From assembly GCF_020085105.1 (NCBI RefSeq), contig NC_058052.1, forward strand, positions 11,637,233-11,701,232: a DNA stretch of 64,000 nucleotides, in the 5' to 3' direction. Shown piece after piece: positions 27 through 61,258 of this stretch; positions within the stretch are counted from its first letter, which is position 1, and the number at the start of each line of letters is the position of its first letter. The DNA comes from Siniperca chuatsi. Taxonomy: Eukaryota; Chordata; Actinopteri; Centrarchiformes; Sinipercidae. Under the pieces are notes generated by a model that saw only the letters and a list, made by a program, of their open reading frames with translations, ran no database searches and was not told where the DNA came from. Position numbers and translations under genes: made by a program.

Positions 27-3000
27 TGAGATTGCTCAGAGTGTAACCCTGGAAACCATTGAGACATTAGCGTTTAATAACCTTCTCAACCTCTCTGAAA
101 TGTAAGTTTTTTTCTATGATTAGATGAATCAATAAAAGTAATGGTCACTGTAAAGCAGCAGAGTTTCAACTGATGTTTTATATCGCTTTGCAGCTCAATC
201 CAGAACACAAGGAGTCTGATGCACATTGGCAGAAGGACATTTAACAACCTTCCCAAACTACATTACTTGTGAGACAACTCAAAATATACAATTTAAATTT
301 ATATGTATGTTAGTTTAAAATTTAAAGATGCATATTAGACAGAACTCTGTTTGTTTTCAGATCCCATATACTTGAGCAATAACCAGATCAAATCAGACAC
401 ATACTAACTTATATGCACTTATACTGATACCAAGTAATAACTTTTTCACTGCATTAAATACTGCTAAGAAGCAATTAATTTAAATTTGGTTTAAATTCCA
501 AAACATATCACCAAATGACATGAGTTTTCCTTTGCATTAACAGGAGCATTTCAAACACTGGGATAACAGTTTTTCCTGACGTTACATCTATCAATTCTCT
601 CGAATCAGAGTTTATCTTGTAAGTACATATGCTGCCAACGTTTTAGTCATGACAAATAAAACTAAAAAGCACATCACCATAAACACATTGCTATGAACTG
701 TCATGCTATTGCAGGGATATCTGTGACAACCTGTATCTACTGGAAATACCTCCAAATGCTTTCATTGGAATGACACAAGAATACGTTACAGCGTGAGTGA
801 TGCAAGAAATTCCTTTTAATCGCTTTACACTGTCAGTTGGAAATAAATGTTAGTCAGCAAGATAGTAATTTCTCACCTTTAATCATAACAAGCTTGTGAC
901 TGATTGCAGGAACCTGTACAACAACGGCATCAGAGAAATACATGGCCATGCCTTCAACAGGACAAAGATAGATAAGCTGTAATTTCCCACATTTCCTTTT
1001 TCTAACTGAATGATGTAAGTTGAGTTTCTGTTCTCATAGCGTTAAGCTTTTGCTTCATTACGGTACTTTATCATTTCAGGGTATTAAAGAATAATCGAAA
1101 CCTCAGAGTGATCCACAGAGATGCGTTCAAAGGAGCCACAGGCCCTGGAGTCTTGTGAGTGGTATTTTTAAACCTCCTGAAAGTCACTTAATGCTAAATT
1201 TATATGCTTAACTTTGCTTGGGAGAGGAGGAAGATGTTTGTAACAGTGGGTTATATGTTACTGCTGACATACTTGCAAACGTATGCAGCTCAGCTGACTG
1301 AAGGCTAGGTGGAAGAAAGGCTGATTTTGATAGACGTTATGCTCTAAGGCAGTGTACAACCAGCACGATGGTCACAAAGAGGCCTTTACACCCCCATGCA
1401 GTCATATTGTTGTCTGTGTCATTTCACAGGGACGTGTCTGCGACAGCTCTCACGAAGTTACCACTGCAGGGACTGGAGTCAGTTCTGGTTTTGTTAGCTC
1501 AGTCAGCATATGCCTTGAAGAGTCTGCCTCCTCTGCAGGGACTGTGGAGCCTGCGAGAGGCCCATCTCACCTACAACAGTCACTGTTGTGCACTGCTGAG
1601 CTGGAACACCCACAGGTGACTTACACTGTGCATTTTACACGTCAATCAAGGATCGTTTTGTTCATGGATTATCTCAGTAAGATCTGCTCCACTGCTCTTC
1701 CAGTTTTCACTCACTACTCTAGTAGTTAAGTACACCAAGGGCATCTTATTCAGAGATCTTACCAACTTGCTTATTACAGTATAAAACAAACAATACTGGA
1801 CTACAATATAAGCACAATGTACAATATAAGTAATAGTATTTCACAGATGTGTTTGTGTGCCTGATATGTGTCAGCCAATGTTAAATATTCAAGCAGTCTT
1901 TACATGATTTCCTTCTTTTTCTCCAGGGACTTTCCCATCAATCCTGCATGGAATAATGGCTCTACATATTGTGATGAGAGTGACCCATCAGCAAGGTAAA
2001 ACATTGTTATGTTTTCCTGTTTTTTTTTTAATAATCTGCTTCTGTAATGGTTAAATTAAACTCTGTGCAGCCTTAATGCTTTAATGAAAAGTTGTATTGG
2101 AAGCACCGAAACTGCCCATATTTGATTCCAACTGACATGCCAATCTGTCGGTCATGTTGTTTAAGCCTTGAGTGCATTGACTTACAAAAAAGATCTGTCT
2201 GCTGGAAACAGTTTGTCTTTAGTTTACTTTACAGATGCCTGTGTTACTGATCTTATCAGCTCTTTATTCTGAATTCTTCAGTTTAAGATGAACTAACAAC
2301 AACAATCTCCTCTCCCTTTTCTTCTTTGAAAACAGGGTTCAGCATGTGATTGGAGGCTCAGCAGATACGACTCTAGTTATGGATATGCCATTTTTTTCAG
2401 CCGCTGATCTGTCTGTGGACGATGAAGGCTTTGGAGATTTGAATTTCCACTATCCAGAACTAGACTTATGTCAGACCCGGCCAACTTTGGTTTGCACACC
2501 TGAAGCAGATGCTTTCAATCCCTGTGAGGACATTGCAGGTTTCAGTTTTCTCAGAGTGGCTATTTGGTTTATCAATATACTGGCCATCACAGGTAACCTG
2601 ACAGTGCTCCTGGTCTCCTTTACCAGCCGGAACAAGCTGACGGTGCCTCGCTTCCTCATGTGCCACCTGGCTTTTGCAGACCTCTGCATTGGGATCTACC
2701 TTCTGATGATCGCTACAGTAGACTTGCGCACACAAGGTCACTACAGTCAGCATGCTATTGAATGGCAGACAGGGCCTGGCTGTAGTGCTGCGGGCTTCCT
2801 GTCTGTGTTCGGTGCGGAGCTGTCAGTCTACACACTTTCCACCATCACCCTGGAGCGCTGGCACACCATCACCAACGCTCTGCAGATAGAGCGCCATCTG
2901 GTACTTACACAGGCAGCAAGTATAATGGCAGCTGGTTGGCTCATCTGTCTGGGGATGGGGATGCTGCCCCTGGTTGGTGTGAGCAGTTACGCCAAAGTCA

Positions 3001-3557
3001 GCATGTGCTTACCCATGGACATAGAGACTCCTCTGGCTCAGGCCTTCATCATATTTATCCTGCTCTCCAATGTGGGCGCCTTCATTGTTGTGTGTGTTTG
3101 TTATGTGCTGATCTATCTGGCTGTAAAGAACCCCGAGCTCCCCAGAAGAAGTGCTGACACCAAAATTGCAAAGCGCATGGCTGTGCTCATCTTCACCGAT
3201 TTCCTCTGCATGGCGCCCATCTCCTTCTTTGCCATCTCTGCTGCATTCAAGGTTCCCCTCATCACAGTTACTAACTCCAAGATTCTGCTGGTCCTCTTCT
3301 TCCCTATCAATTCCTGTGCCAATCCCTTCCTCTACGCTATCTTCACCAAGGCTTTCAGAAAGGACGTGTATCAGCTCATGAGTGCCATGGGCTGCTGTAA
3401 AAACAAGGCCAGCGTTTATCGCATGAAGGCCTACTGCTGTGAAAATGCAATCAAGAGCAATTTGGGGTCCAATAATAAAGGATCCTGCACAGGAGTGAGG
3501 CTGGCTGCCATGCCACGGCAGAGCCATCACCTGAAAGAGGAGGGAGAGCTCACCTGA
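27..3557 (+). CDS. fshr: Follicle-stimulating hormone receptor, 5'-partial
   Basis: Glycoprotein-hormone GPCR that binds FSH on gonadal somatic cells and signals mainly through Gs/cAMP. Exons: 27-101, 194-268, 544-618, 715-792, 910-978, 1080-1154, 1430-1615, 1927-1995, 2336-3557; all junctions are phase 2 and GT-AG. The first six visible exons (69-78 nt each) encode one leucine-rich repeat apiece. The 186-nt exon ends the LRR domain with SHCC. The last exon holds the hinge, the FNPCED cysteine box and all seven membrane helices, with ERW (about 2852) in place of DRY and NPFLY (about 3321) in helix 7. A GCC pair in the tail is a likely palmitoylation site. FSHR rather than LHCGR is favoured by [23 protein letters not shown] and [16 protein letters not shown] has FTDFTCMAP and CFPMDV. 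The signal peptide and first LRR exons lie left of the window, leaving about 640 codons. mertk follows on the same strand. Confidence 0.9.
1927..1995 (+). other. fshr: Extra hinge exon of fshr, absent from mammalian FSHR
   Basis: This 69-nt in-frame exon lies between the 186-nt LRR exon and the large membrane exon. It encodes 23 residues of hinge with one N-glycosylation sequon (NGS) and one cysteine. Mammalian FSHR has no exon at this position, whereas LHCGR has one (its exon 10). It has clean splice sites (ctccag / gtaaaa) and is phase 2 on both sides, so skipping it would keep the frame. Confidence 0.8.
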
Positions 3558-39100: not shown

Positions 39101-42100
39101 ATCAGACTATGGTGTGGGTATAATGTCTGGACCTAACCCCGTCCAGTGGGACTGCTGTCAAAGAACCAAGGAAACATGAGCAGTGGGGGGGGGGTATCTT
39201 ACAGTAGCCCAACTACTGCTGTTCATGAAGAGCAGAAACCTGGAGGGTAAGGCACCCCACAGTGGAATGCAGTACAGGTGTTTTTCTGTGTTCAGAGACA
39301 TTCACTGCCATTTTAACGAGGGCTTCATTCAGTATGCTGAGGACCTCCAGCCACGCTAAAGAATGACTCTTTTCTTTGAATGGCTCTATCTGTGTATGTG
39401 TGAGGAGGTCAGTTTGGCCTCTGGGCTGATGTCTCTTTCAGCCTGGCATTCAGACGCTGCTGAGCCAAGGTCGCCTTACGTGGGTGTGGGGATTTTTGCT
39501 CAACAGTGAATAATACACAGACATGGCAGCCCTGGCCCAAAACATTCCACTAAATCATACATAGGTGGTAGTGGATGTATGTGTGAATGTGGAGAAAGTC
39601 ATGGGGCTCATGAAAACATACTGTAGCTGAAGTTAGACTGCATTGCTCACCTGAATCAAATGTAACACTTGTCTCACACATGGTCAAATATTAGGATTTG
39701 TGGCAGGTTAATACACAACAAACTAAACTCCTAATGAGGCTCACCTTTACAGATGGCACTGATGCCAGTCCAGGTGCCGTTGTCCCGGCAAACACGCATG
39801 GCAGAACCGACAAGATGGTAGCCCTGGGAACAAGTGAAATGGACCTCATGTCCAACAAAATACTTTGAGCCAAACTTGGTTCCATGAGCAGGGGCTTCCA
39901 GAGAGGGGCAGGTGGTGGGAGCTGTGGGAGAGAGAAAGAGAGCACGAGAGGAAGGCTGGTCACATGTGGAGTAAGCCTGCTGACATCCTGTGGCATTCTC
40001 TGCCTGGGGACATACACGTGTCACCGGGCAGTGCAGTGCCTTCATGGGAAAGGACGGTTCAAATGCTTCATTTACAGCCAACCAGCACAGGACCGGCTAT
40101 TTCCAGTCAGAATTTCACCAGCAGCCAAATGTTATGCTATGTTGCATGCTCTGGAAAGTTTAATGCTTGCATAATATATCGCATAATTACATTATATAAC
40201 ATTGTGAATGGATTACATCTTTGGCTTTTATTAGAACTGTGTGCTTCATCCAACTAGGAGGATTGTGAGAAAATGTTTCCCATTCTGTCAGGACACTTAA
40301 GAATCTGTGTGATAAGTCAGTCTCACATGGCCAGACCTCCATCATGTCCAGCTCATGTTTGTACTATGATGAAAGCCCATTGTGCCTTTTTCTGACCAGT
40401 TTTTGAGTTTAAGTTTGAGCTTGATGTCACAGGGGTATGTAAGATAACTGTGTGTAGTATGGTTTTTACATGTATTGTATGTAGGGAATCATGTACTGTA
40501 GAATAGGCTAACTATGCTTAATGTTGATAAGTACTGAAAATAGATGGGGAATGCTGCACAACATTATTTGGATAATATTATTAGGAAATTAAATCATATA
40601 TTATTTTACCAATTAATTTATTGCAACTATATCTAAATCAAAAATGTATTTGTTTTTTATTAATATTTGGATTTTTGGATTTGCCTCCTTATCTGAGCAT
40701 TTAAAGCAGGTGGTGCAGTAATTTCACTTCTGTCTTTTCATTTTATTAAGCCTTTATTGCTGTAAATGTAAAATATCAGCTTCTTCCTGTCTTGCCAAGT
40801 ACTCTCCACAGAGTTATGGACTGCACTGGTCCATCACTAACAAATTGGCCTCAGTGTCTGCTGCCAAACAACACAATTCCACAAATTCACTTCCCCTGTC
40901 AAGTACCCAGCTCTGTAACTGAGATGGCCTCGCAATGTTGGATGAATATACAGTATAATCCCATAATAGAAGAAGCCATATCTGGCTCTCTATTGCCACT
41001 GGTTGATGGAAAAAACTGTTTGAAGATCAACTTCTAACAATTGAATGTTCCTAAAATGTTGTAAATTTGATACTTTGGAATCTTCTATTGCCTTTAACTG
41101 AACAATCATTCACTGAATTACTGACCAAAACCTCAGTCACATCATGCATGCATGTGAAACTTTATACAGCATGGACTTCAAATGAAAGGACAACTCGTTC
41201 GGTAAACTCTTTCTGTGAAAATAAATGTGTAAAATAATAAGCATCACAGATGAAATGACTTAGTTTTAGTTAACAGCCAGTTAAGTTTTACAGCCAATCA
41301 TATAGTGTGTGTTTACATGATCAGTGGCAAATGTTGATTTTACAGCATAAACCTAAGCAATATGTATAAAATATGACTATAAAATCTATTTCATACAATT
41401 ACTCACCATAAAGTAATATCAGATTGGTATCCACCAGATACTTTTAATCAACTTTAAATCAACTTAATCAATTGTATTTAAATTGTAAACTTGAAGACTT
41501 CTACCATAGTCACTTTTTAAGACAACAAAAACATTGCATAAATACACGCTAAATATTTATGTATTACATTTATCCTAATGCTCAGTGATATATTAGCTTC
41601 TCTGCACTGGCTCCCTGTAACATCCACAATAGAATTTAAAATCCTTCTCCTCACCTACAAAGCTCTAAATGGTCAGGCACTATTGTATCTTAAAGAGCTC
41701 ATAATATCTTATTACCCCACAAGAACACTGCGCTCCCAGGATGCAGGGTTACTTGTGGTTGCTAGAATCTACAAAAGCAGATTAGGAGCCAGAGCCTTCA
41801 GTTATCAAGCTCCTCTCCTGTGGAAGCAGGTCCCAGTTTGGGTTCGGGAGGCAGACACCATTTCCACATTTAAGAGTAGGCTTGAGACTTTCCTCTTTGA
41901 TAAAGTTTATAGTTAGGGCTGGCTTGGGAGAGTCCTGAACCATCCCTTAGTTATGCTGCTATAGACCTAGACTGCCGGGAGACTTCCCATGATGCACTGA
42001 GCTCCTCTCTCCTCCTCTCCCTCTCCATTTGTATGCATTTTTATCCCATTAATGCATGTTACTCAACATCTTCTCACTCCTGTAGTTTTGTGCTTTCCCA

Positions 42101-54677: not shown

Positions 54678-54683
54678 TTTATT
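54678..54683 (-). terminator. Candidate poly(A) signal of the vinculin-like gene
   Basis: TTTATT on the plus strand, i.e. AATAAA on the minus strand, 86 nt past the stop codon at 54769. Confidence 0.45.
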
Positions 54684-54768: not shown

Positions 54769-57700
54769 TCACTTGTAGTGGTCTTGCACATTAACTGGGA
54801 GGGCAAGACTGGGTGCTGCAGGGTGGGATGAGGTCTTTCTCAAACCCAGCTCATCAGTCTCTGGGTTAGAGGTCTGCTGGGCTCGATGGATCTCCAGCTT
54901 CCTCCTCCACTGGAAACACAAGGCTGTAGCCTCTGCACCATCTGAATTTGGCTCAGGCTGCTTCAAACCCTAGAATAAGAGAGCTATTGTACAGTTTTAA
55001 TCGCTCAGGAGACAATTCTCACAGGACATACGTTTACGTTTTTGATGTTAGATTTACTGTGATGCTGGCTGTCTCTGCAGCGTGGACCCCACGCAGGACC
55101 GTCTGGAGTAGATTTTGTGCGTTCTTTACCAGGATCTCATCAGATGATTTGCACCCAGGTGTTACAGCATTGACACTAAGTAAACATTAAGAAAAACTGT
55201 CTTATTACCTTTCTTTATTTTTTTTTTCTAGCTTAGTTTTCAGTGTCTGAAATGTCTAAACTCTTCTGACCTGGAGATGATGTTGAGCTGGTTGGTGATG
55301 GTGAGAATCTGCTCAACTATTAGGGAGAGCTCAACCCTACACTGTTTATCCAGGCAGTGGTTGGCAATAACTCTGATAAAGCGAGTTACTGACTGGCAGT
55401 TTGAAATCACATCTTTGGCTGCAGTGACAAATGTCGCTTTATTCTGAAAAAAAGGAATGATTGTTAATGAGGGTGTCTGCAAATATTAAGATCAAGGCAG
55501 TAAAGTGCCCTCTAGTGGTTATTACCGGTATTGGGCCTTTCTTCTTCAAGTACTGTGTCATGTAACATAGTGTGTCAGCCATCTTCCTGGTCACCTGGAC
55601 AATTCTGTTATCCTTGGGATCCCAGCTGTCACTTTCTTGCTTTAGAAAAAGGGAGGTGTAGGTCAGCGAAGAAGCTTCTTTGTATGCAGTAGACCTGACA
55701 CCATCCTGTAGAGAAAAATAGGTTTTAGGTGATTTATTGTGACATAAAGGAATCACTGAACTGTAACATCTTATTAATCATGAGATACCTACATCTTTTT
55801 CCATATTTCCAGGTCCATATTTGACCACAGCTGCCATGTTCATATTCGGTTTTGCAGCATCTACACACTCTGTGTTGCCTTTCTGCCAGGATGTCATTGT
55901 CGTGTCGGGAAATTCCACTTCTTTGACTTTAGATGGGATTGTAGCCAACACTTCTTCGATATCCTCAGGTGTTCTGCCCTGTAGACCAGCCCTCATATGC
56001 TCTTTAGCCTCTTGGTGAATCCCATCTTGCTTCCAGATCTCCTCCACCACATAATGAGCTTTGGCTGACCAGCACTGTATCTGCACCTCCAGACTGAGTG
56101 TGTCACAAATGTAGTGAGTCTCGACCATGAGCCTCGCCCTGCTGATTATATCTGAGATCTGGAAAGACAGGTGGTCGTTGATAGACCTCAGATTAGAACG
56201 GGCACGTGGATCGCGGATGTAGTTTAAGCAGTCCTCGACTCTTTTGGTCACAAGTTTTACATTTTCAAAAAGCCTTTGTGCTGCGTTTTCAAATTTCTGC
56301 TCTGCATCTTCTGTGTTCTCCCGAAAGTGTTCAGCAGCAAAATAAGCAATGCTGACAATATTTTGAAGTGCAGTTTCATAATCCTTATTTGCTTTGCTCA
56401 AATGACCAGAAAGCGCTCTAATTTTAATCAAAAGATGTCGCTGAAAGAATTCTGATTTTGCAAGTTGCATCACACTTGGCATTATGTCAAGCTCTTCGGC
56501 AGCTTTAAGATAAGCTTCAGTCAGTGTTTTTAGTTCATTCTGGTATCCTGTTAACTGTTTTGATTTGTAAGCACTTTTACAATTTAGGCTGGTTAGCCTC
56601 GCTGCCTCTTGGATTCGAAGCGAGTTCTCAGACAACACTGATAGCTGTTTCTGAGGGCTCAGCTGGTTCATTGCAGTTGATGTTCCCAAAATCTTATCAA
56701 GAGAATTGAGTAAAATCTGAATAGACAGGCCCCAGAGGATACAGAGTCCCTCTAGTTGATCTACTTGTCCTACCAATGAGGTGGAAAATCCCACCAGATA
56801 CCTTGTGTTGTTCTGGGCTTTGTTGAGCTTGTTGTGTAAAATGCTGAATGTTTCTTGACTGTCACTTTGTGAGGTTAGATCAGAAGATGTCAAGAGCTGG
56901 ACCACGTCAGCACATAAAGCCATCACTTCATTTAGTCGCTGTGTAACAGTGATTGCCATTGTTGGCAGAATTCCTTGCAGCTCAGTGTAAACAGCATGAT
57001 ACCAGGTTCCAGCTACTGGCAGTAAAACCTTTCGAGTGTTGTTAATAAGGTCAGAAAACTGTGTGCTATATTTGTAGATGCTCTCTGTGCTCATCGCTGA
57101 GCTCATCGCCGTCTCTTGAGCTGTCTGGACGAGCAGCGGAGTCAGCGACACCAGCTCTGCTCTAAAACTTTCCAATGTCTGACGATCAACCGCATCAACA
57201 ATGGCCAAGGCTTCCTTTGCAGCTTGAGCATAACAGTTTGACAGCTCAAGAACACCATTGCATGCCTGGTTGAGTACTGTCACATCTTTCCCTTTAGTCA
57301 CAGTCACAACTTCATACAAGAGGGGTAAAAGGTCAAATTCAAGAGGTTTGTGGATCAGTTTGGGCGCTTCGGAGACAGCTGGGATCTTTAAATCATCTCT
57401 GTCATATTTACGAGCCAGTTCTACTTCTATGGTTTCCTCATCTGAGCGCTCCTCCTCATGTTCGGTTTGGGAATCCCTCATAACGTTCAAAACAGGAGAA
57501 GCAGAGCCTCTTCTCATATGATCCAGGTTCAGTTCACAGGTGTCTTTGACTGGTAAACATGATTGTGAGATTTCAGGCTGACGTGCCCCCTCTCGCAGTG
57601 GGCTCAGGAGATGTGGGTGCTGTTGGCCGTCCAGTCCCTTTCGGAGCACTTTGAAATGCTGAATAGCCATGGAAACATTATCTGAAAAAGTAGTATATAC

Positions 57701-60700
57701 CTCCACATTTAGACTGGAACCTAAAAGCATGTCTCTGACTGACTCCCCCACTTTGGTTTGAGATGGCTGAACCTGCTTCAGCAAGACCAGGAGGCCATTC
57801 CTGTAGATGGGGTTATCACTTCTGTCCAAGTGCCTCCTCACTGACTGAATCACCAGCTTCATGTGACAAATAAGGTTTGTTGCATGTTCATTGAACAGTT
57901 TATAGCTCTGCTCTCTGTACGCTGCGTCACACCCATGTCGGTCATTGACCATCTCATTAATAGCAACACTGGTGAACTCCCTTACATCCATTACATCACC
58001 GAGAGCGTCTTGAAGCTGAATATTCTCTTCCTCCCATTTTTGACACACCTCATGAAGCGTTTGAACAGTTTGGATTGAATTATCCGCCAGCTCCAGTGAA
58101 AGAGGTGCGATTCGAGCTCTGAGTCTTGTAAGGCATGCGTGTGAGTTTTCCACGTTCTCCAAACTCTTTGCATCAACAGCCACAGCTGAGATAAAATTTG
58201 CCACTTGGATTATTCTATCAGTGGAAGATATGAAATCCTCAACTAGTGGCTGAATAAAGTTCAGATCCATCTTTGTAGAAGAATGTGCAACTAGGATCGG
58301 TCTCATCACACTTAAAAGTTCCTCAACTGTTGAAGATGCTGTAAGAAATGTGTCCAAGACTTGATAAAGAACAGCAGTCATCAAAGCTTTGTCAAGCATT
58401 TGTATTTGCTGCACCAACAAAGTGCAGGTTTTCTCAAGGCTCTGCTCAGTAATATCAGGATCCTCTGAGGACTTTAAAATAAATTTTATGTCTGACCAGA
58501 ACTGCAGGATGTGACGACAATGACCCACCACTCTTTGCTGAAACTCTCTACGAGAAGAGTTTGCCACAACCATACAGTGAAACACAAGATCTCTTATCAT
58601 GCTGTCAAAGCCACTGCCTCGGATTGAAGAAGTGGAGGAACTGGTAAGTAGTTGCAACACACTGTTCCTCCTCCCTGTGTAATACCCACAAGGACCCAGT
58701 GATCCATTGTGACATTCACTTTTCAGGGTTATAATAATCTCACTCACTGTGCTCTGCACCTTGTCCAGAATGTACCTCTTGGCTTCCTGTGCCTGCTCGC
58801 TTGTAGGGTGTTTGATGGTTGTGCACATGGCCGTGTGCAGCATGGAGATGCACCTCCTCAGGGTCTCCAAGGAATCAAGAAGCTGTTTCGTTTGTCTGGG
58901 ATCCTGTAAGGAATTTGCTCTCTCCACTGTCAGACTGTTGAGGAGAAGCAGAGCCTGAGAAAACACCTGGAAAGATTTGAGCAGAGACTTGATGTCTGAG
59001 GAAGAGACAAGCTCAGAGAGGCACTCCAAAACTCGATCAGCAGCAGCTACAATTCTCCTTACAGTAGCATCATCGTCCACTAACAGAACCTAAGATCAGA
59101 AAGACAGATGAGGTTACTTACTGCTGCTGAACAGTTTCTTATGCTTTTTTAGCCATACTAGCGGCATGGAACTGTGGAGGGCAATGTCAGCCTGTCAGTC
59201 GGTCGGTCAGGCCACCACTTTGCTACTGACTGAAATATCTCAACAACTACTGGATTGATTGCCATGATTTTGGAGATCCACAGACTTTTCCTTTATTGCC
59301 ACCATGAGGTTGACATTTTTGGTTTTTAGTTAAATGTCTTGACAACTGTTGGATGGATTGACATGAAATTTGGTTAAGACATTCACGTCCCTGGAATTGT
59401 AATTCAGATAGCGCCAAGATCAGGTGAAAATTATAAGCTGTGCAATAATGAAAATAGCTGCAAAACTATGCAAAACTAAACTATATGATATTCCCATCAG
59501 CCTCAGCTATACTTTAGGTTTAGTGCTAATTAGCAAATGTTAGCATGCTAACACAGTAAACTAAGATGGAGAACATGGTAAACATTATACCTGCTAATCA
59601 TCAGCATGTTAGCATTGTCACTGTGAGCATGTTAGCATGCTGACGTTAGCATTTAGCTCAAAGCACCACTGTGCCTAAATACAGCCTCATGTAGAGCTGC
59701 TAGTATGGCTGACTCTTAGTCTTGTATATATTTCACACATGTTGACTGGGCATAATAAATATTACCTAGTCATGCAATAATGTCACTGATCAAATTTAAT
59801 GACTAAATGTAAAACCTAGAAATGAAAACTAGGTTTGTGTGCACATAAATTAAATAGTGATGAACTGAAAAAGTTCTACATTGTGGTGCACAGGTATTGT
59901 ATATATAAAGTGACCTGTGTTGCAGTATGAGTTCATAATATTGTGAAAATAACAATTATGGGTAAAGACAGAAGTCCCAGATCATTTTGCAATCTCTTAC
60001 TAAACCTTGGACAATGATGGGAAACAAAAAGTCTGCCTGTTCTGACTGTAAGAGCTATTGTTTGCGAAAAATGTTGAAATTTAACTTGCACAAATCGCTG
60101 TATTCAAATATGATACTCTAGTGTGCTGAAATAGTGTTGGCAGATAGAGAGCATTTCCCATAACCAAAGAGAAGAAAGAAGTCACCATGTGATGTTATGA
60201 GTGTAGAGCTTCTTATAAAGTTACAAAAGATTATGACAGTGTCTTGAGTAGTCTTGAGTAGCTGATGTAAACCCATTTCATAAATTACTAACAGTCTGTA
60301 CACTGGCATGGCATTACAGATATCAGTCAGTAGCTAACACTGGAAAAAGTTCACTGTCCTCACAAATTAACAAAAGTTCATTTAAACAGTTTTTTTATGA
60401 CACACTGGAAGTGTAGGCCAAGGATCTTGGTTTAGTAGCAGAGATATTTCAGGTGTAAAATGTAAAACAGCCAGCAGTTTGGCCTCTTGTGTTAAGTAGT
60501 ATTCCCATTTAAGGAAACCTCTGGGAAAGTAAAAAGCAGATGTAGCTGTGGAAGATGAATCTATTGGAACCTGTCTGTGCTTTTAATCACAATCTGCAGC
60601 CATCCCTTCTCCCTATCTCTGTTTATTTTTAAAAGTGTAATATCTTAAATTGAATGGTATATTTAGTAACATACTTGCAACCACCTTTTAAACCAGGAGA

Positions 60701-61258
60701 AGAAAAATCATACTTTACTTTGACTACTCCCAGGAAGACATTTTGTGTAGCAGTGATGAGTTCTTCTCTGTGCTCGGTCAAACTGGGCTGGATGCTGAGT
60801 TTCTGGGCTGCCAGCAGCACATGTTGTCCAGACACAGTGACTGACTCCAACAGGGACGACACCTCCATGTGCAAAACTTCATCCTCTGTCTCACTTATTT
60901 GCCTGGAAGTAAAGAGCCTGGTGTTTATTTAATAATAAATCACACGTCAGTCTCTTATATAATTTTAATAAAGACATCACATGTTGGAATGTGACTTTTA
61001 CAGACTTGTACCTGCGGTCTTGTTTGTTAAATTTCTATTCTTTACCTCAGCAAACTGTACATACCTGGAGGCCACTGCTGCCATATTCTCAGTAGCTTTA
61101 GCCACAGCCTGAGCTGCCCCCTCCAGCTGGCTGAACTGTTCAGGTTCCTCTGCACTGTCACACAGCAGCACCAAGTGGCATAAATGACTTGCAATTGGTG
61201 CAACCACCCGCTCCACCACCGCGGTCCTGATCAACCCATGATCCAATAAAGAGGACAT
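54769..61258 (-). CDS. Vinculin/alpha-catenin superfamily protein, long form, unnamed
   Basis: Probable actin-linked adhesion or scaffold protein, inferred from family only. Exons in transcript order: 61258-61065, 60902-60719, 59089-55793, 55705-55526, 55443-55271, 55175-55058, 54969-54769. The sum is 4347 nt, 1448 aa, all phases closing. Residues 1-130 match the vinculin/catenin N-terminus (VVAPIASHLCHLVLL; DDDATVRRIVAAADRVLECL), with exon borders in the same places as vinculin. Residues 130-620 are predicted helical bundles like the alpha-catenin D1 and M regions. Residues 620-690 are a polar acidic linker (EEERSDEETIEVE), followed by further bundles to about 1225. The last exons resemble the vinculin tail: DNRIVQVTRKMADTL, VIANHCLDKQCR, ILVKNAQNLLQTV, FQWRRKLEIHR. 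Vinculin is 1066 aa and alpha-catenin about 906, so this is a third longer. No proline-rich neck is seen. Alpha-catulin (734 aa) is a poorer fit in length and tail. One 3297-nt exon holds residues 127-1225. Confidence 0.85.
59151..59710 (+). mobile_element. Complete non-autonomous element with 12-bp terminal inverted repeats
   Basis: Left end AGCCATACTAGC (59151-59162) and right end GCTAGTATGGCT (59699-59710) are exact reverse complements. The interior has GTGCTAATTAGCAAATGTTA and several GTTAGCATGCT motifs. It matches the truncated copy at 14590-15030. No open frame. It lies in intron 2 of the vinculin-like gene. The target duplication could not be defined. Confidence 0.75.

Follow-up and report, generated by a model that had tools for sequence, protein, structure and literature searches.

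A divergent gene of the vinculin/alpha-catenin superfamily in Siniperca chuatsi

A gene of seven coding exons in a 64,000-nucleotide stretch of the Siniperca chuatsi genome (NC_058052.1, positions 11,637,233 to 11,701,232; hereafter the window) is an intact member of the vinculin/alpha-catenin superfamily that has no near copy findable by search and probably represents a separate, deep-branching subfamily. The initial annotation, made from the DNA letters, had proposed both superfamily membership and distinctness from named members, and both are supported, the latter with respect to the other genes with a Pfam Vinculin domain (PF01044) found in this genome. The features of the gene are collected in Table 1.

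The splice model, with GT-AG introns, reproduced the gene exactly as first described, from 61258 down to 54769 on the minus strand with seven coding exons and a product of 1448 residues. All six introns are GT-AG and their phases (2,0,0,0,2,0) are consistent. Residues 127-1225 do lie in a single uninterrupted exon, as the open frame and its splice sites indicate. Base composition alone would be expected to give about 3e-26 stop-free runs of 1103 codons in the window, so this frame is not a product of chance; the exon's five remaining frames contain 48, 52, 56, 72 and 72 stops. A frame without stops in a protein only about 26% identical to its nearest relatives suggests that selection has hardly been absent. 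No DNA repeats of at least 24 bases were found within the gene. That the gene is an unexpressed relic, or its model false, is highly improbable, given the intact frame, the full set of splice sites, the consistent phases and the polyadenylation signal shortly past the stop codon.

Table 1. Features of the gene, in window coordinates
Feature	Position	Strand	Basis and remarks
Coding exon 1	61065..61258	-	ATG at 61258; residues 1-65; ends phase 2; GT donor; aligns to N-termini of vinculin and alpha-catenin
Coding exon 2	60719..60902	-	To residue 126; ends phase 0; AG/GT sites; unbroken alignment to vinculin
Coding exon 3	55793..59089	-	3297 nt; residues 127-1225; both ends phase 0; 1103-codon open frame; splice sites
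Coding exon 4	55526..55705	-	Residues 1226-1285; splice model
Coding exon 5	55271..55443	-	Residues 1286-1343; ends phase 2; splice model
Coding exon 6	55058..55175	-	To residue 1382; splice model
Coding exon 7	54769..54969	-	C-terminal extension, residues 1383-1448; vinculin-like FQWRRK segment; stop codon
AATAAA poly(A) signal	54678..54683	-	85 nt 3' of stop codon
N-terminal head (VH1-like), residues 10-249	58721..61231	-	Exons 1-3; Pfam Vinculin, PDB vinculin/alpha-catenin
Middle bundles (M1-M3, VH2-like), residues ~283-632	57572..58621	-	Pfam; sponge VIN1 and alpha-catenin-1 alignments
Acidic linker, residues ~640-700	57368..57550	-	17 D/E and 9 K/R among 61 residues
Extra helical region, residues 684-1225	55793..57418	-	No credible Pfam/PDB match; low-confidence AlphaFold2 model of 689-1225
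Putative actin-binding tail (VH3-like), residues 1242-1382	55058..55657	-	Pfam; PDB vinculin tail and sponge VIN1 tail

The 1448-residue protein matches PF01044 with 217.5 bits (E=5e-64) against a curated cut-off of 38.1 bits. Profile positions 2-622 match residues 10-629, corresponding to the head and middle bundles, and positions 680-847 match residues 1239-1406 of the tail with 105.6 bits when the piece 1226-1448 is scanned separately. Among solved structures, the PDB matches to the head and tail are vinculin, sponge VIN1 and alpha-catenin. Sponge VIN1 (PDB 6bfi) aligns with the head, middle and tail of the fish protein, over residues 11-614 and 1234-1382, and alpha-catenin-1 (ctnna1), with a similar short head and middle bundles, over residues 10-564 and 1244-1382. 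The order of domains is a head (VH1), middle bundles (VH2), an acidic linker, an extra helical region of about 540 residues and a five-helix tail (VH3). The acidic stretch noted in the initial annotation exists, but it lies at about residues 640-700 and not at 620-690. Vinculin lacks the roughly 540 residues before the tail and has a proline-rich linker where the fish protein has few prolines (two in residues 1190-1241, three in 620-640 and two in 640-700). The fish protein is 382 residues longer than either of the 1066-residue vinculins of the same genome, in agreement with the earlier estimate of about 380.

Residues 684-1225 had no credible match in Pfam, where the best was a Ribosomal_S15 fragment under the curated cut-off, or in the PDB, where the best was a TOM20 fusion with E=0.27. 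Single-sequence AlphaFold2 models have helices nearly throughout, with mean pLDDT values of 41 for residues 689-1225 and 51 for 715-945. The middle bundles had initially been thought to be duplicated, and the region could then be a second copy of the M bundles, giving a protein with two heads and one tail. Such an internal duplication would account for an all-helical prediction, albeit from low-confidence models, and when the region was aligned over its whole length to a joint M1-M2-M3 profile the score was above all 400 plain shuffles and all eight reversed family pieces. Of 200 class-preserving shuffles it exceeded 194, and 190 when the protein's own head was removed from the profile; seven profiles were tried, with two forms in the class-preserving test, so these 3-5% tails are not significant. 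Single M bundles do not show the lean seen with M1-M2-M3 together, and at least one of the eight reversed pieces reaches the real score for five of the seven profiles, the exceptions being N1 and M1-M2-M3. The head, used as a positive control, scores 44.6 against the M1-M2-M3 profile, whereas the extra region scores -47.4.

Local profile searches with other programs were not significant against shuffles either. HMMER domain E-values are 0.0088 or worse, and the real value was reached by 11 of 400 scored shuffles for N2 and 10 of 339 for M3 (500 shuffles were made per profile, of which the 339-465 with a reported score serve as denominators). Whole family profiles give sequence E-values of 0.0054-0.065, and hhalign gives a probability below 1%, which 4-28 of 60 shuffles reach. 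The weak best matches of several profiles converge on residues of about 1053-1112, and by eye RTPEDIEE at residue 1165 resembles the RTPEELDD that follows M3 in alpha-catenin, as a duplication could explain. Residues 1053-1112 (window positions 56132-56311, minus strand) form a segment that is M3- or N2-like in its weak matches and was noted post hoc. Taken over BLASTP, HMMER, hhalign and the whole-bundle profile alignments with their controls, the case for duplicated bundles is suggestive at most, and we think the duplication rather unlikely to explain the extra region.

The genome searched comprises 719 Mb, and PF01044 was scored on 53 of 58 first-look candidates. Among the 56 PF01044 matches listed there are six regions: two vcl copies, on C20 and at C11:13908629-13937042, ctnna1 on C8, ctnnal1 on C17, a 252-kb region on C3 that is probably ctnna2, and the present gene. 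The C11 copy is a complete vinculin gene on the same chromosome as the window gene, 2.2 Mb away from it. Spliced alignments gave 21 exons for each of the two vinculins and, for ctnna1, 907 residues in 17 exons; the 733-residue model obtained for ctnnal1 is less certain. Since ctnnal1 was detected through one exon only, a further divergent PF01044 gene could be missed by this search. When the genome was searched with the entire protein, all seven matches were its own exons, so there is no near copy within the reach of that search, which did not extend to the known vinculins. No relatives were found in prokaryote genomes or viral contigs, as expected for an animal gene.

A tree of the N-terminal domain and tail was built from nine rows and 477 columns, the rows being the present protein, three vinculins (two from the fish, one human), alpha-catenin-1 and catulin each from fish and human, and sponge VIN1. 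The present protein groups on the vinculin side (100/98) and falls outside the sponge and vertebrate vinculins (86/91). The N-terminal domain alone places it outside these vinculins (95/98), with the vinculin side itself at only 89/92; the tail alone leaves the order among the present protein, sponge vinculin and vertebrate vinculin unsettled. AU tests were run on five groupings picked post hoc, two of which were already branches of the tree. With the groups so chosen after the tree had been seen, the test disfavored placing the protein with vertebrate vinculin but apart from sponge vinculin (p=0.029), and also clades with alpha-catenin and with catulin (p=0.011 each).

In the same 477-column alignment the protein is 26-27% identical to vinculin, its highest value, 24-25% to alpha-catenin, 25% to sponge vinculin and 18-19% to catulin. 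For reference, vinculin and alpha-catenin are 28-29% identical to each other, and vertebrate and sponge vinculins 45-47%. By these figures the present protein is about as distant from vinculin as vinculin is from alpha-catenin. The tree suggests a split older than a duplication of vinculin within vertebrates would be, as far as a post hoc AU value of p=0.029 and a very long terminal branch (2.2 changes per column) allow. With so long a branch and nine rows, one of them from an invertebrate, long-branch attraction of a fast-evolving duplicate could mimic a deep placement.

The gene might instead have arisen from vinculin by duplication in teleosts or vertebrates, perhaps through an RNA copy without introns, and have acquired introns and evolved fast afterwards. 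Its N-terminal domain and tail are closest to vinculin, its branch is very long, its chromosome also carries a vcl copy, the large exon is unusual in size and the introns are confined to near the gene ends, all as such an origin would have it. We nevertheless consider this origin unlikely. The AU test, if post hoc, disfavors joining it to vertebrate vinculin with sponge vinculin left outside; vinculin residues 270-525 have no counterpart in the vinculin alignments except for a stretch at -1.5 bits, whereas alpha-catenin and sponge VIN1, with their short heads, align there without a break; and the gene has none of its five comparable introns in common with vcl.

The comparable introns are the five of six that lie within the alignable N-terminal and tail regions. 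The initial annotation described vinculin-like exon borders at both ends of the gene, and this was wrong: no intron matches either vcl copy or ctnna1 by column and phase, and none does so even when two columns are allowed at the same phase. By the same measure the two vcl copies share 5/5 and 3/3 introns, ctnna1 shares 4/4 and 2/3 of its own with ctnnal1, and vcl shares none with ctnna1. The intron that follows residue 1382 has its column in common with a ctnnal1 intron, at a place where both the catulin gene model and the alignment are poor. A tail intron of vcl likewise comes within two columns of one in ctnnal1, so single coincidences of this kind weigh little. Such a set of introns would be expected after a split about as deep as that between vinculin and alpha-catenin, or in an intronless copy with later intron gain. 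With the vinculin-like borders gone, the main reason for the further proposal that middle introns had been removed by recombination with a cDNA falls away, and that proposal is unsupported.

In the tail, I1340 and V1344 correspond to I997 and V1001 of vinculin (fish vcl and human VCL alike, which also share the VH1 head) and to I792 and V796 of alpha-catenin, and the catulins have M or T and then T in these columns. Residues of the I997/V1001 type are actin contacts. R1405 and K1406 correspond to R1060 and K1061, the RK pair near the C-terminus of vertebrate vinculin. Where alpha-catenin has L785, the fish protein has T, as vinculin does. In the head, the alanine of vinculin position 50 is retained, but it is common to all nine sequences and so is little informative. 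By alignment, the VH3 tail has the hydrophobic contacts that are conserved in the actin-binding helix, and since it keeps the I and V absent from the catulins as well as the RK pair, we infer that the protein is an F-actin-binding linker located at adhesions or in the cell cortex.

A working scheme can be proposed on this basis. The head may dock to a partner at a membrane adhesion or at the cell cortex, which is a guess from the family, and the tail would bind F-actin. The acidic linker and extra helical region could form a long spacer, or a second docking platform, between head and tail. By analogy with vinculin and alpha-catenin the protein might open under force, and it might be autoinhibited.

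Superfamily members outside the named vertebrate genes have been glimpsed before. Sry-alpha and Spt of Drosophila have been set apart as a Vinculin/alpha-Catenin clade of their own, with a reported similarity to the middle sequences (PMC3820746). According to the legend of Fig S2 of that paper, the uncharacterized proteins F1Q8P1 of D. rerio and F7CCD7 of X. tropicalis group with Sry-alpha and Spt, and each of these accessions is named only in that one paper within the literature searched and the text available. PMC13245172 mentions an alpha-catenin-like clade from Miller et al. 2013, which is uncharacterized and by description also old and unnamed. No description of the present gene was recognized among the literature matches listed.

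The gene could be the vertebrate counterpart of insect Sry-alpha/Spt, as the Fig S2 legend suggests for F1Q8P1 and F7CCD7 (PMC3820746). As the only unassigned PF01044 gene among the matches listed, if the C3 region is taken to be ctnna2, it is a natural candidate and may be the orthologue of F1Q8P1. The similarity reported for Sry-alpha and Spt is in middle sequences, and the fish protein has VH1 and VH3 in addition; this comparison is with the published description of those proteins, as is that with the clade of Miller et al. We regard the identification with Sry-alpha/Spt as possible, if doubtful.

The neighbors of the gene in the window include a protein-kinase exon and a gene with fibulin C-terminal and sushi domains, which we take to be mertk and fbln7, and a gene with CCCH motifs, presumably zc3h6. 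Pfam matched five of nine open frames in and beyond the window; the two zc3h6 pieces had no match, nor had two of the three frames that lie outside the window, so the zc3h6 assignment rests on CCCH motifs recognized by eye. Human ZC3H6 is also close to MERTK and FBLN7, and we know of no vinculin-type gene beside it. With uncharacterized superfamily members reported from D. rerio and X. tropicalis, it is plausible that the present gene is a paralogue absent from mammals.

Three other features of the surroundings were noted. An integrin alpha Ig-like domain is encoded about 14.5 kb past the window end (L035:4536-4793, minus strand), which places an integrin alpha chain near an adhesion-type gene. 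A single exon at 2292-3557 (plus strand) encodes a rhodopsin-type 7TM domain (114.9 bits) that by eye resembles the glycoprotein-hormone receptors. An open frame at 41542-41916 (plus strand) looks, also by eye, like the C-terminus of the reverse transcriptase from a non-LTR retrotransposon of fish.

A bolder version of the preferred reading is that the subfamily is pre-bilaterian, has persisted in fish and frogs but been lost from mammals, and has two helical force-bearing regions in series with one actin-binding tail. We think it unlikely that all of this holds. If it were true, the two regions in series would make a mechanical linker longer than vinculin or alpha-catenin and tuned differently from either. 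The mechanics of vertebrate cell adhesion are usually framed by vinculin, the alpha-catenins and catulin. If there is an additional intact subfamily whose domains are ordered differently, fish models of adhesion and force sensing lack one of their components, and the present gene looks like a separate, old branch of this well-studied family.
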